Source: Elusimicrobiota bacterium (lineage in GTDB: Bacteria; Elusimicrobiota; Elusimicrobia; Elusimicrobiales; UBA9959). From it: a stretch of DNA of 38,189 nucleotides. Shown here piece after piece: positions 2,555 through 27,747 of the stretch. Location of the stretch: assembly GCA_030651035.1 (NCBI GenBank), contig JAUSCK010000221.1, positions 1 through 38,189 on the forward strand, read 5' to 3'. Numbering within the stretch: position 1 is the first letter of the stretch; each line of letters starts with the position of its first letter. The notes beneath the pieces were generated by a model. The model was not told where the DNA came from, made no database searches, and worked only from the letters and a program-made list of their open reading frames with translations. A program made the translations under genes and the position numbers.

Positions 2555-2974
2555 TTACCGCCCCTGAAAATCCGCGCCGCCGGGGAAATTGTAAGAGGCC
2601 CTCCAGTCAGGCTGTATATCCATAAGATACAGCCGGGCTTCATCGGCATATGAGGGGTAGTTATCATAAGAGCGCCAGTCCGGTGAAAGCTCGGCGACCC
2701 GCCGGTGCGGAGAATGCAGGGAAACAGCCAGTATCAACGCGGCGGCGCACGCGGCCAGCGCCGGCGCTGCTTTTTTCCAGAATGACCTTGGCGCGGGCTC
2801 CCGTTGGGCGCCCAGCAGCGCGCGTATACGGTTCTTTACCGCAGCTGGGGCGTTTAATTCCGCTTTTTTAAAGCGGGAAATGACCTCTTCGTTGGCCGCG
2901 GATCTTTTTGCGTCCCCGGCCGAGATTTCAGTTATGAACCTGCTCAACTCTTCAGATTTTTCAGGGCGCGTCAT
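2555..2974 (-). CDS. Membrane anti-sigma factor (probable), module 1
   Basis: A 139-residue protein whose start overlaps the end of the ECF sigma gene by 14 bases, the usual arrangement for a translationally coupled anti-sigma factor. Residues 1-68 are charged and cytoplasmic-like. One hydrophobic segment spans about residues 69-86 (PALAACAAALILAVSL), followed by a periplasmic tail of about 50 residues. There is no HxxxCxxC zinc motif, so it is not a ZAS-type anti-sigma. The tail holds a short tandem duplication, PDWRSYDNYPSYAD then PDWRASYNFPGGAD. The role is inferred from gene order and topology, not from a recognised domain. Confidence 0.7.
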   Translation of the reverse strand: MTRPEKSEELSRFITEISAGDAKRSAANEEVISRFKKAELNAPAAVKNRIRALLGAQREPAPRSFWKKAAPALAACAAALILAVSLHSPHRRVAELSPDWRSYDNYPSYADEARLYLMDIQPDWRASYNFPGGADFQGR

Positions 2975-3470
2975 AATTCTCCCCCGTTAATTGTTTCCTT
3001 AATTTTGCCATGCACCTGTAAAGGATAGTTCCTACATTGCTTTCACTCAGTCCCGTAACCGCCGCTATCTCGCGGTTCGTCATTTCCGAATAGAACTTCA
3101 GGGTTATCATGTCACGCTCCCGCGGCTCAAGCATTCCAAGGGCTGAAACAAGTTCGGCTATATCACCGCCGGTATCACCTGTCCCCGGATCACGGCCGGA
3201 TTCTCCGGGAAAGATGTCGCCGAAAAGATCGAGAGGAAAGAATTTTAATATGGCAGCTTTTCTCAGGCAAGAATTAACTTCGTTGCGGGCTATGCCGAAA
3301 AGCCACTGGGCCATATTGCCCCTGGCCGGGTTGTATTGCTCAAAACGGGCCAGGGCTTTTTGGAAAACAGCGGAGGATATATCCTCAGCCGCGGCGTCCG
3401 CGCCGATACGGCAGCGTATGTAGGAGTAGATCCGCGCGAAGAATTCTTCGTATACCTCGGGAAATTCCAT
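2961..3470 (-). CDS. ECF-family RNA polymerase sigma factor, module 1
   Basis: A 169-residue sigma-70-family ECF factor. Region 2 covers about residues 5-70 (VYEEFFARIYSYIRCRIG, then MAQWLFGIARNEV). Region 4 covers about residues 110-160 (LGMLEPRERDMITLKFYSEM, TNREIAAVTGLSESNVGTIL, the helix-turn-helix that reads the -35 box). ATG 3470 is preferred because AGAGGTGG lies just upstream; a GTG two codons earlier is possible. The gene heads a minus-strand set of sigma, anti-sigma and exported protein. It has motif 1 in its own promoter region, so positive autoregulation is likely. Confidence 0.93.
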   Translation of the reverse strand: MEFPEVYEEFFARIYSYIRCRIGADAAAEDISSAVFQKALARFEQYNPARGNMAQWLFGIARNEVNSCLRKAAILKFFPLDLFGDIFPGESGRDPGTGDTGGDIAELVSALGMLEPRERDMITLKFYSEMTNREIAAVTGLSESNVGTILYRCMAKLRKQLTGENYDAP

Positions 3471-3489
3471 AACCACCTCTATAATACAA

Positions 3490-22662: not shown

Positions 22663-23397
22663 TTATTTGTCGAATTCGGTGAGGTTTTTGCGGTATTTCA
22701 GGGGGACGTTCTGGCGCTGGAGTTTAGGGTTTACCCTTTCCGCTATCGCGGCTGTCTTGAAGAAGTGCTTCCAGAGCTTCCGCACCTCCGCCTCTTTGGC
22801 GTCCTCCAGGATAAGCGCGGCGGCCAGCGGGGCGTAAACCAGTTTCCCGTTAAAATACAGCGCGGCGTTATTGCGCCGGGCGTCGTGGATTACCCAGTTG
22901 AAGGTCCCCAGCCGCGCGCGGAAATGCGGAACTAACAGGGCAAGTATATTATGGTCGGGCTCTATTTTTGAGTAAAGGGTTTTGTCCGCCAGCTCCTTGA
23001 ACCTTACGAAGCCCTTGAAGCGGTGCGCCTCGCCGCCCACCTTGGCTGAAAGGCCGTGGACTTTCTTTACCCGGTCGTCAGCCAGCATATTGTCGGCTGC
23101 CGGGCCTTTCTCCAGCAGCAGTTTCACATATTCAAATATGGCCGTTTCCGCGCCCGGGACTTCCGAGAGGAAGGCGAAGCGGATATGCTGCCAGGATTCC
23201 GCGGAGCCTCGGCGCTCTATCAGGTCCCGGGCAGTGGCCGCGCGCTGCTGGTCCGTGCCGGCATTTATAAATTCAGAGAACAGCCCCGCTTCCTCCGCGT
23301 TCTCTTTTGAAATGGCGCAGGCGTCCCCGCTGTCCAGCGCCAGCGAGAGCGCCGTCAGGAAGCCTTCAAAACAGCCGTCGTAAAGGAAAGTCTTCAT
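22663..23397 (-). CDS. DUF4130 / TIGR03915-type protein, putative DNA metabolism
   Basis: A 244-residue cytoplasmic protein matching the TIGR03915 (SAM/DUF4130) family by its start TFLYDGCFEGFLTAL, the conserved GGEAHRFKGFVRFKEL, PDHNILALLVPHFRARLGTF, NWVIHDARRNNAALYFNGK and C-terminal VPLKYRKNLTEF. It overlaps the radical SAM gene by four bases. The two families nearly always occur together and are thought to act on DNA, but the reaction is not established in my knowledge. Confidence 0.88.
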   Translation of the reverse strand: MKTFLYDGCFEGFLTALSLALDSGDACAISKENAEEAGLFSEFINAGTDQQRAATARDLIERRGSAESWQHIRFAFLSEVPGAETAIFEYVKLLLEKGPAADNMLADDRVKKVHGLSAKVGGEAHRFKGFVRFKELADKTLYSKIEPDHNILALLVPHFRARLGTFNWVIHDARRNNAALYFNGKLVYAPLAAALILEDAKEAEVRKLWKHFFKTAAIAERVNPKLQRQNVPLKYRKNLTEFDK

Positions 23398-24674
23398 AGC
23401 TGGCCGGTCACGGTCCCGGCCAGGCCCTCCTTCACCAGCTCCTTTTCGCCGAACAGGTCCAGCTGGCCGTTGGGGTTCTTGTGCTCCAGGAGTTTGATCT
23501 TTATGGCCTCCCCGGTTTCTTTTTTTAAGCCGCCGTATTTGCCGCCTGCCGTCACAAAATAGACCGCGCGCTTCATCACCACGCCCAGCTTTTTAAGGTC
23601 GTCCAGGCTTAAGGGGGCCGTGCGCCGCGCGCGCAGTATCCTTTTTGCGGAGGTCACGCCTATGCCCGGCGCCCGCAATATCTCTTCATAGGAGGCTTTG
23701 TTGACCTCAAGCGGGAAGAGATGCAGATTGTTCAGCGCCCAGACCGTCTTGGGGTCGAAAGACAGGTCCAGCGTCGGGTGTTTTTCATCCAGCAGTTCGT
23801 CCGCTTTGAAACCGTAGAAGCGCAGCAGCCAGTCGGCCTGGTAAAGGCGGTGCTCGCGCAGCAGCGGCGGGCTGAGAAGGGCGGGCAGGCGGCTGTCCTT
23901 GGTGACCGGCACAAAGGCGGAATAGTAGACCCGCTTGAGGCACATTTTGCCGTATAGGGCCTCGCTGAGCTTTATGATCTCGCGGTCGGTCTCGGGCGTG
24001 GCGCCTATTATAAGCTGGGTGCTCTGCCCGGCAGGGGCGAAGGCGGGGGAACTTTTGATAGAGCGCCGCTCGTCCTTCGAGGCGGAAATTTTCTGCGCCA
24101 GGCGGCTCATGGGCCCCAGCACGGTCTCTTTCGTCTTGCCCGGGGCCAGCAGGCGCAGGCTCTTGTCGGTGGGCAGCTCTATGTTCACGCTCACCCGGTC
24201 CGCCCAGAGGCCGGCCTGGTCAATAAGGGCCTGGTCCGCGCCCGGTATCACCTTCATGTGCACGTAGCCGTTGAAGCGGAAGACCTGCCGGAGCTTTCGC
24301 ACCGCCTCCAGCATAAGTTCCATGGTGCGGTCCGGGGATACTGTTATTCCTGAGCTGAGGAACAGCCCCTCAATATAATTCCTTTTATAAAATTCGAAGG
24401 TGAGGCCGGCTATCTCGTCCGGGGTAAGTATGGCTTTGGGGGTGTCGTTCGTCCGGCGGTTCACGCAATAAGCGCAGTCGTAGACGCACTCGTTGGTCAT
24501 CAGTATCTTTAAAAGTGAGATGCAGCGGCCGTCGGCGGTCCAGCTGTGGCAGACGCCGCTCAGGTGGGCCGCCCCGGTGCCGCCGGCGCCGCCGCGGTCC
24601 GAGCCGCTTGAGGCGCAGGAGGCGTCGTACTTGGCGGAATCCGCCAGTATCTCCAGTTTTTTCTCTAAATCCAT
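23394..24674 (-). CDS. Radical SAM protein with C-terminal helix-hairpin-helix (TIGR03916-type)
   Basis: A 426-residue protein described in family databases as a putative DNA modification/repair radical SAM protein. The cluster motif is CVYDCAYC (Cys63, Cys67, Cys70; spacing CX3CX2C). Three more cysteines upstream (20, 42, 51) might bind another metal site. The C-terminal part has a helix-hairpin-helix, EEILRAPGIGVTSAKRILRA (about 336-356), a DNA-contact motif. The near-terminal QLDLFGEK resembles a peptide used by DNA-processing proteins. Co-transcribed with the DUF4130 gene. Confidence 0.9.
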   Translation of the reverse strand: MDLEKKLEILADSAKYDASCASSGSDRGGAGGTGAAHLSGVCHSWTADGRCISLLKILMTNECVYDCAYCVNRRTNDTPKAILTPDEIAGLTFEFYKRNYIEGLFLSSGITVSPDRTMELMLEAVRKLRQVFRFNGYVHMKVIPGADQALIDQAGLWADRVSVNIELPTDKSLRLLAPGKTKETVLGPMSRLAQKISASKDERRSIKSSPAFAPAGQSTQLIIGATPETDREIIKLSEALYGKMCLKRVYYSAFVPVTKDSRLPALLSPPLLREHRLYQADWLLRFYGFKADELLDEKHPTLDLSFDPKTVWALNNLHLFPLEVNKASYEEILRAPGIGVTSAKRILRARRTAPLSLDDLKKLGVVMKRAVYFVTAGGKYGGLKKETGEAIKIKLLEHKNPNGQLDLFGEKELVKEGLAGTVTGQL

Positions 24675-24826
24675 ATAAATATTCTAGCAAACGAACCCGT
24701 CAAGGGCGTGTCGCGTTGGAAAACGGCGAAATTACAAGAATAGTGCCAGGACTTACGATATTATACGGCAGGAAGCGCGGTTTGGCAACCCTTTTGCACC
24801 AGCGAACAAGATAGCAGAAGCCCGCG

Positions 24827-24857
24827 AATGAACTTTTTTCCGGGTTCCGGCACTAAC
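24827..24857 (+). promoter_or_regulatory. Candidate ECF promoter, motif 2 copy C
   Basis: Reads AATGAACTTTT-N10-CGGCACTAAC. GAACTT resembles the classic ECF -35 box (GGAACTT). The same boxes with the same spacer occur at 26354-26384. The end of CGGCACT is 38 bases before ATG 24892, the same distance as at the other copy. This copy would drive the small exported protein and probably the sigma/anti-sigma genes behind it. The rest of 24675-24891 holds no gene that I can see. Confidence 0.65.
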
Positions 24858-24891
24858 GGGATACAAGACTTTTCCAGAGAGGTGCCTGATT

Positions 24892-25206
24892 ATGTCCAGA
24901 AAAGCGTTTTATGCGGTGTTGGCGGCGGCATTATGTTTATCTGTCCCGGCGGTAGTTTGGGCCGTGTATCAGGATAATACCAATGCGATATATTGCGATG
25001 ACCCCGCGAACCCGGTCTGCGGGCTTTACCGGGTGTGCCGGCCGATACTGGACCAGTACCCGGAATCCGAGATCACCGAGAAAGGAAAGGACTGCACGCT
25101 GACGATAGAGTCGCGCCAGATAATTATCCGCAGGAAAAGGGTGGGCGATGTTGCGGGGTATTTCTTTTACGCGCACCAGGTGCCGGTAGTGAAAAAAGCC
25201 TCGTGA
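24892..25206 (+). CDS. Small exported cysteine-containing protein (unknown)
   Basis: A 104-residue protein with signal peptide (KAFYAVLAAALCLSVPAVVWA); AGAGGTG precedes the ATG. The mature part has four Cys residues (YCDDPANPVCGLYRVC and DC), which could form two disulfides, and a basic strand RQIIIRRKRVGDV. I do not recognise a family. It sits directly before the second ECF sigma gene and under the motif 2 promoter, so it may be a sensor, feedback or envelope component of that system. Confidence 0.7.
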   Translation: MSRKAFYAVLAAALCLSVPAVVWAVYQDNTNAIYCDDPANPVCGLYRVCRPILDQYPESEITEKGKDCTLTIESRQIIIRRKRVGDVAGYFFYAHQVPVVKKAS

Positions 25207-25264
25207 CAGAGAAAAGTTTGCGGCCGCGGGGTAATAACCATATAATTATTGTTTGGCCAGCTTA

Positions 25265-25861
25265 ATGGAACACCCGGACAGAAAAGAACTAATAGAACTG
25301 GAAAACAGCCTGATCTCGCGCTTTATTGGCGGTGACGCAGAGGCCTTCGCCGGCTTGGTGGATATCTACAAGGACAGGGTACACCAGTTCATACTCTGCA
25401 TCCTGGGCCCCGACAGGGAGGCTGAGGATATCGCGCAGGAAGTTTTTATTCAGATCTACAAGTCGCTGGGCGCCTTCCGGCGCGAGTCGTCGTTCGGCAC
25501 CTGGGCCTACTCCTTAACGCGCAATGTCTGCCGGCGCAGGCTGCGGGACAGGGGCCGCGAAGCCGGCTTGTTCAGCGGCGATGACGGCGAGAGCGGCGGC
25601 GAGCCGCGGGACGCGGCGCCTTCCGTCGAGATAAAGTTCGAGAACGAGGAAACGGGGAAGATCATCCGCGCAGCGGTGGACGGGTTATCGCCCCTGCACC
25701 GCTCCGTGATCTTCCTGAGCTGCTGGGAGCATCTTTCGTACAAGGAGATAGCCGCCGCGCTCGATATTCCCATAGGCACCGTGCGTTCCCGCATACATAA
25801 TGCCCTGGCGGCCCTTTCCACGCGGCTCAAACCGGTTCTGGCGGAGGAGAAACAGCCATGA
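25265..25861 (+). CDS. ECF-family RNA polymerase sigma factor, module 2
   Basis: A 198-residue sigma factor of the RpoE-like ECF type. Region 2 covers about residues 15-85 (LVDIYKDRVHQFILCILG, DREAEDIAQEVFIQIYKSLG, SSFGTWAYSLTRNVCRRRLR). Region 4 covers about residues 130-190 (GLSPLHRSVIFLSCWEHLSY, KEIAAALDIPIGTVRSRIHN). ATG 25265 is used; a TTG four codons earlier is possible and neither has a clear ribosome binding site. It overlaps the anti-sigma gene by four bases. Confidence 0.95.
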   Translation: MEHPDRKELIELENSLISRFIGGDAEAFAGLVDIYKDRVHQFILCILGPDREAEDIAQEVFIQIYKSLGAFRRESSFGTWAYSLTRNVCRRRLRDRGREAGLFSGDDGESGGEPRDAAPSVEIKFENEETGKIIRAAVDGLSPLHRSVIFLSCWEHLSYKEIAAALDIPIGTVRSRIHNALAALSTRLKPVLAEEKQP

Positions 25862-26352
25862 AACATCTTGCTGATGAAGAGTTTACGGACCATCTTTTGG
25901 GTGAGACGGCGCCCGGGAGAAGAAAAGAGACGGCGGCTCATCTCCACGCCTGTCCCGCCTGCCGGAGCCGGCTGGCTGCGCTGCGCGCCGCCGCCTCCGC
26001 CGTTGCCGCTGTTCCCCCGGCGCCGGTTTCGGCGGATTTTACAGCAAAGCTCATGGCAAGGATCGGGGAGGGGGAAAAGGCCGCTCCCGCCGAACATATC
26101 GGCATCTTTTCCTGGCCGGCCCCATGGAAATTGGTTTTTGCGGCCTGCGCGCTAATGTTGTTCGCTGCCGCTTTCTTCCGCCCGGGAGGTGCCCCGGTCC
26201 CAGCCACATCTAGAATTCTTTACCTGGCGGACGGGCCGGCTACGCCGGTAAGGCTCGCCGGCCTGGTTTCGCCCGCCCAGCCAGGTGTCGAAGCGAAGTC
26301 CGGCGGAATATATTTCTCGGATTCCTGCAGAACAGCCGGATGCGGGCTTTGA
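25858..26352 (+). CDS. Zinc-binding (ZAS) anti-sigma factor, module 2
   Basis: A 164-residue membrane protein. The N-terminal cytoplasmic domain has the ZAS motif HLHACPAC (His28-X3-Cys32-X2-Cys35), typical of anti-sigma factors that hold ECF sigmas and often sense redox or envelope stress. One membrane segment lies near residues 88-106 (WKLVFAACALMLFAAAFF). The periplasmic tail of about 55 residues is Pro/Gly-rich and carries two Cys near its end (SCRTAGCGL), a possible disulfide switch. Translation is coupled to the sigma gene. Confidence 0.9.
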   Translation: MKHLADEEFTDHLLGETAPGRRKETAAHLHACPACRSRLAALRAAASAVAAVPPAPVSADFTAKLMARIGEGEKAAPAEHIGIFSWPAPWKLVFAACALMLFAAAFFRPGGAPVPATSRILYLADGPATPVRLAGLVSPAQPGVEAKSGGIYFSDSCRTAGCGL

Positions 26353-26353
26353 A

Positions 26354-26384
26354 AATGAACTTTTACGGCTTTCCCGGCACTGAC
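26354..26384 (+). promoter_or_regulatory. Candidate ECF promoter, motif 2 copy D
   Basis: Reads AATGAACTTTT-N10-CGGCACTGAC and begins two bases after the anti-sigma stop codon. Both boxes, the spacer length and the 38-base distance to the next ATG match copy C at 24827-24857, while the N10 segments differ. It should drive the STN-TPR gene. Confidence 0.65.
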
Positions 26385-26418
26385 TGTACGACAACCGTTA
26401 GTCAAAAGGAGAATTGAT

Positions 26419-27747
26419 ATGAAAAAGATGCTGACCATTATGTTCCTTATCCAAAGCGCGGCGATTACCGCTTTGACGCCGGTCCTTGCCGCCGAGCCGC
26501 TCTCCGCCTTCCCGGGCGTTCCGGAGGTTACCGGGGCCGCGGCGGAGAAGAAAGTTAATGTGCGATTCAGGAATATTTCCCTTCCGGAATTCTTTAAATA
26601 CGTTTCAAGGGAAACCGGGCTGACCTTCAGACTGGCCGACCCGGAGCTTAACACCGTGCATACTACGATCTATATGAAAGATTCATCTATTTCTGCGTTG
26701 ATGGAGATATTCGTCAAGTCTAAGAGTTTGGAATTTCAGCGCGACCCGCAGGACGGCGCCTACTTGGTAAAAAGAGCGAAGAAGCCGGCGGTTTTTCCGC
26801 CGTTAACCAGGAAAGAACTGGAAGACCCGCTCCTCCAAAGAGTGGTAAATAAAAAAGTCCGGCTGAAAGAAGTCGCTCTTGCCAACTTCCTGGACACGGT
26901 TTCAGAGCAGACTAAAATAAATTTTATTATTACCGGGGACACTCCCGATATCAGGGTAACTACCGAGTTGAATAACACCACGGTGGTAGACATCTTACAG
27001 TTCCTAAAAAGCCGGGGGCTCGAGTATTCCAGGATCACGGACACCAGTCTCTTTATCGTCCGGCCAGCCGGGGACGGCGCCGAGAGGTTCTCTAAAGCCG
27101 AGACAGCGTTCAATGAAAAGAAATATGAGGATTCCGCCGCTCTTTACAGGGAGATCGCCGGCAAGAATCCTGACTCCGACATGGCCGATTACGCGCTGCT
27201 TATGAGCGCGGTCAGCTATGACTGGCTGGCGGCCCGGGATAATTCCCCGGCGGCCCTCAAATCGGAAGAGGAGGCTTTGCGGGCCCTTATAATGGATTAT
27301 CCGGCAAGTTCCCGCCTGGGAGACGCCTACCTGTACCTGGGTCAGATATATTCCGGCCATGCCGGAGCGGCCATAAAAGACATTGACTGTAAAAAAGCCC
27401 TCGGATTCTACGCGCTGGCTATTGAGAAAACTTACCGGGACTGGGTGAAGGCGCAGGCCGAGGTCAGGATGGGGCAGTGCTACGAACGGGCCGGTGACAG
27501 GCTTAAGGCGCTGGTTGTTTACAAGGAAGCCGCAAGGAAGTACCCGGACGAAGAGATCGTTAAATCCATACAGCCGCTCATCGATGGACAGAAAACGCTT
27601 CTGAACGCCGGGATCGAACTGGAAAACAGCGGCGAATATGAGCTGGCCGTCAGAATTTATGAAACGGTTTTAAAGAAAGACCCCGGCTCGGATACGGCAA
27701 GGGAGGCGGCGCGCCGTATTGAGATCTGCAAGAGCGGCCGCCATTAG
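26419..27747 (+). CDS. Exported STN-STN-TPR protein without a secretin channel
   Basis: A 442-residue protein with signal peptide (MKKMLTIMFLIQSAAITALT...). Residues 45-118 and 146-215 are two STN/secretin-N0-like domains: VNVRFRNISLPEFFKYVSRE with TIYMKDSSISALMEIF, and VRLKEVALANFLDTVSEQ with TELNNTTVVDILQFL. Residues 222-437 are tetratricopeptide repeats (KAETAFNEKKYEDSAALYRE, GDAYLYLGQIYSG, GQCYERAGDRLKALVVYKEA, LENSGEYELAVRIYETVLKK). STN domains usually precede a secretin pore or TonB barrel; neither is present. The ribosome binding site is AGGAG. It is the likely output of ECF module 2; an envelope scaffold or sensor role is only inference. Confidence 0.85.
   Translation: MKKMLTIMFLIQSAAITALTPVLAAEPLSAFPGVPEVTGAAAEKKVNVRFRNISLPEFFKYVSRETGLTFRLADPELNTVHTTIYMKDSSISALMEIFVKSKSLEFQRDPQDGAYLVKRAKKPAVFPPLTRKELEDPLLQRVVNKKVRLKEVALANFLDTVSEQTKINFIITGDTPDIRVTTELNNTTVVDILQFLKSRGLEYSRITDTSLFIVRPAGDGAERFSKAETAFNEKKYEDSAALYREIAGKNPDSDMADYALLMSAVSYDWLAARDNSPAALKSEEEALRALIMDYPASSRLGDAYLYLGQIYSGHAGAAIKDIDCKKALGFYALAIEKTYRDWVKAQAEVRMGQCYERAGDRLKALVVYKEAARKYPDEEIVKSIQPLIDGQKTLLNAGIELENSGEYELAVRIYETVLKKDPGSDTAREAARRIEICKSGRH

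Follow-up and report, generated by a model that had tools for sequence, protein, structure and literature searches.

Two closely similar DNA boxes lie on either side of a sigma/anti-sigma gene pair in the stretch analysed here (the window, 38,189 nucleotides from an Elusimicrobiota bacterium). The question they raise is whether they serve as promoters for the sigma factor whose gene they enclose, and what they would drive. Gene order in the window agrees with the original prediction that the boxes flank the pair, running on the + strand from P1 through exp104, sigma and anti-sigma to P2 and STN-TPR.

24827-24857, + strand: P1, predicted ECF promoter before exp104, with an orthologous site in 9/9 genomes that have the locus
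24892-25206, + strand: exp104, a 104-aa exported protein with no Pfam or NCBIfam match
25218-25246, + strand: putative housekeeping promoter TTGCGG-N17-TATAAT between exp104 and sigma
25265-25861, + strand: sigma, an ECF sigma factor of 198 aa with sigma2 and sigma4 only, HMM orthologs in exactly 9 genomes of the family
25858-26352, + strand: anti-sigma factor of the membrane-anchored zinc-finger type, ATGA overlap with sigma, H28xxxC32xxC35
26320-26346, + strand: C-terminal tail of the anti-sigma factor, D-x-C-x4-C-G invariant in 9/9
26354-26384, + strand: P2, predicted ECF promoter before STN-TPR, abutting the anti-sigma stop codon
26419-27747, + strand: STN-TPR protein, with a signal segment first, two STN-like domains (about 43-120 and about 145-216 of the protein) and TPR repeats (about 223-440)

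Each box is 31 bases long (20 positions are fixed, one is A or G and 10 form the spacer) and reads AATGAACTTTT TTCCGGGTTC CGGCACTAAC at P1 (24827-24857) and AATGAACTTTT ACGGCTTTCC CGGCACTGAC at P2 (26354-26384). Both copies were exact in the window, with the positions, fixed bases and equal spacer that had been claimed for them. The -35 element of P1 is TGAACTTTT (24829-24837) and its -10 element is GGCACTAA (24849-24856). With up to 3 mismatches allowed, P1 and P2 were the sole matches in the window (expected 0.01; two matches in 0/100 shuffles). The genome-wide motif search proposed earlier was carried out; when 2 mismatches at most were allowed, P1 and P2 were again the sole hits in 4.47 Mb, and two additional matches at 3 mismatches were not above a reversed control pattern. 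A relaxed pattern, GAACTTTTN{11,15}CACTRA, also returned only P1 and P2 in 4.47 Mb. No further regulon members were found in the source genome by either the strict or the relaxed pattern, and the regulon appears to be the four-gene module alone.

The sigma gene starts at ATG 25265. Its product has Pfam domains Sigma70_r2 (30-97) and Sigma70_r4_2 (132-183, both in the residue numbering of the domain-search query). It agrees with the ECF definition in having sigma2 and sigma4 only with a linker of <50 residues, and passes the cutoff of the sigma70-ECF superfamily model. Two further ECF traits are a -35 element with AAC, seen as TGAACTTTT at 17/17 aligned sites, and an adjoining anti-sigma gene that is likely co-transcribed, judging from the ATGA overlap at 25858-25861. 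The -10 motif CGT is absent from P1 and P2; it characterises just those ECFs that were studied first (PMC8103513) and is no requirement of the present ECF definition. Class I zinc-binding anti-sigma factors are defined by an Hx3Cx2C signature in the N-terminal domain (PMC7406223). This signature is present in the predicted anti-sigma factor, with H28, C32 and C35 invariant in 9/9 orthologs and zf-HC2 detected in 7/9. A hydrophobic segment was placed by eye at about residues 92-112, and the C-terminal tail is predicted to lie outside the membrane. Distant relatives (L091, L125 and L127) have a similar tail, reading DHCLAARCGP, DRCLSASCGAS or DRCLAANCQA. This conserved Cys tail is a possible thiol or metal sensor and suggests where a signal may enter. 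STN-TPR weakly matches FecR_C and STN, and its fold search gave matches to TPR only, BamD-like best, with low overall TM. Past its signal segment, exp104 has four invariant Cys (C35, C43, C49 and C68); its fold model is weak (pLDDT 65), with no PDB match.

Eight further family genomes encode an ortholog of STN-TPR (42-52% identical), and all eight have both P1 and P2 at orthologous places with 0-2 mismatches. The relatives' sites were chosen by pattern, yet each genome has them at the orthologous positions; for G055, whose locus is spread over two contigs (C79 and C75), the gene order is inferred. Spacing between the elements is kept as GAACTT-N15-CACTRA at 17/18 sites (one reads AACTAA) and is N16 at one, P2 of G041, whose spacer is one base longer. 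At the 17 sites of equal spacing TGAACTTTT never varies and GGCACTAA hardly does; the flanking 25 bases are almost without information. Lack of conservation in relatives would have refuted the original reading; instead, 9/9 genomes keep the pair as islands in otherwise unalignable DNA. Most neighbouring genes change from one genome to the next, so conservation is confined to the module and does not reflect general synteny. P2 starts only a few bases from the anti-sigma stop codon, overlapping it in three genomes, and in G044, which is without exp104, P1 stands directly before sigma. A P2-like site is also kept at more distant loci, in another family (TGAACCTT...GGCACTAA in L125 and TGAACCTTTT...CGGCAACT in L091). 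The 38-base offset from the last T of CACT to each ATG (37 bases between) is true at both window sites, but the equality drifts in the relatives, where the distance is 33-37 for P1 and 29-39, 46 and 76 for P2. Because the distance is not kept, we regard the equality as a coincidence and reject the exact offset as a functional feature.

The same comparison bears on two other ways of reading the boxes. With just two copies in the window, the likeness of P1 and P2 might come from a recent duplication, a repeat element or chance; yet P1 does not match P2 in spacer or flanks, the pair persists next to STN-TPR proteins as divergent as those above, and it recurs nowhere else. The conservation data refute this explanation, and we give it practically no credence. 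Two boxes at fixed spacing could also be bound by an activator or a repressor, and would then be operators, not core promoters. Against this, the boxes are non-palindromic, constant in orientation and mostly 29-46 bases from the ATG, they have a sigma-E-like -35 and promoter spacing, and no conserved regulator gene other than sigma and anti-sigma was found. An operator function is therefore very improbable.

A sigma profile search covering 235 genomes of the class, the family of 59 included, found strong orthologs of the module sigma (E <1e-97) in exactly nine genomes, all within the family. These nine are the nine that have the P1/P2 pair (counts uncorrected for shared ancestry). The pair was found in 0/50 of the family genomes without this sigma, which held few, scattered single matches at most. 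One of the single matches lies in G033 (L082, G033:C122), a genome closely related to G044, and continues into sequence that codes for TPR. We rejected chance as its origin, as alignment with G044 shows it to be P1 beside a deletion: about 2.6 kb is missing, beginning just downstream of P1 and reaching the 3' end of STN-TPR. This natural deletion took sigma, anti-sigma and most of STN-TPR and left a single P1, whose -10 has mutated from CACTAA to CGCTAA (GGCGCTAA vs GGCACTAA).

Another sigma of the genome might read the boxes, the sigma between them having other targets. The genome has about 10 more sigma-like genes that match the module sigma, at least 7 of them clearly ECF, and in G013 a similar site, GAACTTTT-N14-CACTAA at spacing 16 (L136, G013:C42:910-937), lies just upstream of a distinct ECF sigma. 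Because this related sigma has such a site, the predicted promoter grammar is not wholly private to the module sigma. However, the site pairs occur exactly in the genomes with the module sigma and are absent from the 50 others of the family, and in G033 the sigma genes were lost together with damage to the -10 of the remaining P1. Recognition by a different sigma is thus improbable. The original reading of the boxes as ECF promoters is supported, at the level of sequence, by their fixed orientation and spacing, their proximity to start codons, the sigma-E-like -35, conservation relative to the flanks and co-occurrence with sigma. We consider it very likely that P1 and P2 are ECF promoters recognised by the sigma encoded between them.

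Comparison with known systems places the module among familiar designs. GAACTT had been proposed as a classic ECF -35 core, and it is indeed common to the -35 of sigma-E, given as GGAACTT (PMC8103513) and, in Salmonella, as GGAACTTTT (PMC1804206). P1 and P2 have the GAACTTTT -35 core in common with the sigma-E promoters of E. coli and Salmonella, and contain the sigma-E core except for its first G. Their -10, GGCACTAA, is unlike both the quoted sigma-E GTCAAA and CGT. The module sigma can be aligned with E. coli sigma-E over almost its full length and has GTVRSRI of region 4 in common with it, but in region 4 has HN where sigma-E has FR, and it scores 107.5 bits against the cutoff of 236 of the NCBIfam RpoE equivalog TIGR02939. 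A membrane-bound anti-sigma and, probably, autoregulation of the sigma are shared with RpoE-RseA; the module differs in its zinc-finger type of anti-sigma and in a regulon that apparently consists of a single module, where that of RpoE has many genes. With class I zinc-binding anti-sigma (ASDI) systems such as SigW-RsiW, the module shares the HxxxCxxC domain, the membrane anchor and the sigma/anti-sigma overlap. SigW is among the best sequence matches of the module sigma, which stays below the cutoff of the SigW NCBIfam model (116 vs 209 bits), and the module differs from SigW-RsiW in that its anti-sigma has a short extracytoplasmic tail with the invariant DxCx4CG. FecI-FecR-FecA has STN domains alongside sigma and anti-sigma, as the module does. 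However, the STN domains of the module are fused to TPR repeats, and no STN-domain TonB-dependent receptor was found, there being no barrel in the module and none conserved beside it. FecI systems are usually without autoregulation (PMC8103513), whereas here a promoter of the module's own type precedes sigma, which suggests autoregulation.

The original prediction had the two sites point to exp104 and STN-TPR. Both genes do lie downstream, but control by P1 very likely extends to sigma and anti-sigma. A search of the + strand from exp104 to sigma gave no terminator-like site, so transcripts from P1 are likely to read through the 58-base gap into the pair. P1 precedes the gene run that contains sigma, and in G044 immediately precedes sigma itself; the module is probably autoregulated. 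A second start may lie closer to sigma. TATAAT was seen by eye before sigma in 7/9 loci, and in the window TTGCGG lies 17 bases upstream of it, a weak match to the -35 consensus that is absent from the promoter scan output. Retention of TATAAT together with this -35 suggests a housekeeping promoter for basal expression of sigma and anti-sigma.

We propose that at rest the membrane-bound zinc-finger anti-sigma would hold sigma, a weak housekeeping promoter keeping the pair present. An envelope signal would free sigma from its anti-sigma, and the freed sigma would start at P1, giving exp104 and then, by read-through, sigma and anti-sigma, which would amount to positive feedback plus renewed braking. 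From P2 it would start transcription of STN-TPR. Whether STN-TPR is moreover the cognate envelope partner of the anti-sigma, in a surface-type signalling loop without a TonB receptor that is sensed via the Cys-containing tail, perhaps with exp104, seems to us doubtful.

The module (window 24892-27747; L071-L078) appears to be a mosaic, the histories of exp104 and sigma differing from those of anti-sigma and STN-TPR. Between the source genome (G000) and G047, exp104 and sigma are 70% and 78% identical, but anti-sigma and STN-TPR only 36% and 45%. Distances correlate well for exp104 and sigma (0.80) and for the C-terminal half of anti-sigma and STN-TPR (0.83), and weakly for sigma and STN-TPR (0.38). 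The sigma tree joins G000 and G047 with moderate support, and for STN-TPR a clade of these two was rejected (p-AU 2.7e-5). Discordance of identities, distances and trees suggests internal recombination of the module, in which anti-sigma and STN-TPR moved as a unit; this is compatible with, though no proof of, a joint function.

The design is an ordinary one, a narrow ECF module in a little-studied phylum, and our literature search turned up no work on the regulon of an ECF sigma in Elusimicrobiota. Here sequence alone yields the sigma, likely its two promoters and likely the whole regulon, with nine genomes to back it, and this compact sigma/promoter pair provides one more case for the study of how ECF promoters are recognised.

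Other sigma loci and a neighbouring promoter were also observed. The source genome has a second sigma/putative anti-sigma/STN locus (L079, G000:C132, 4122-6600), with sigma 28% and STN 41% identical to those of the module; its anti-sigma is a different one and its STN protein is shortened, and a search of this locus for the P1/P2 motif gave no match. The window contains a second, distant ECF-like sigma gene (2961-3476, - strand, 27% identity). Finally, a strong sigma-70-like promoter, TTGCCA-N17-TATAAT (11/12), lies at 24760-24788 on the - strand and points to a radical SAM gene (23394-24674).
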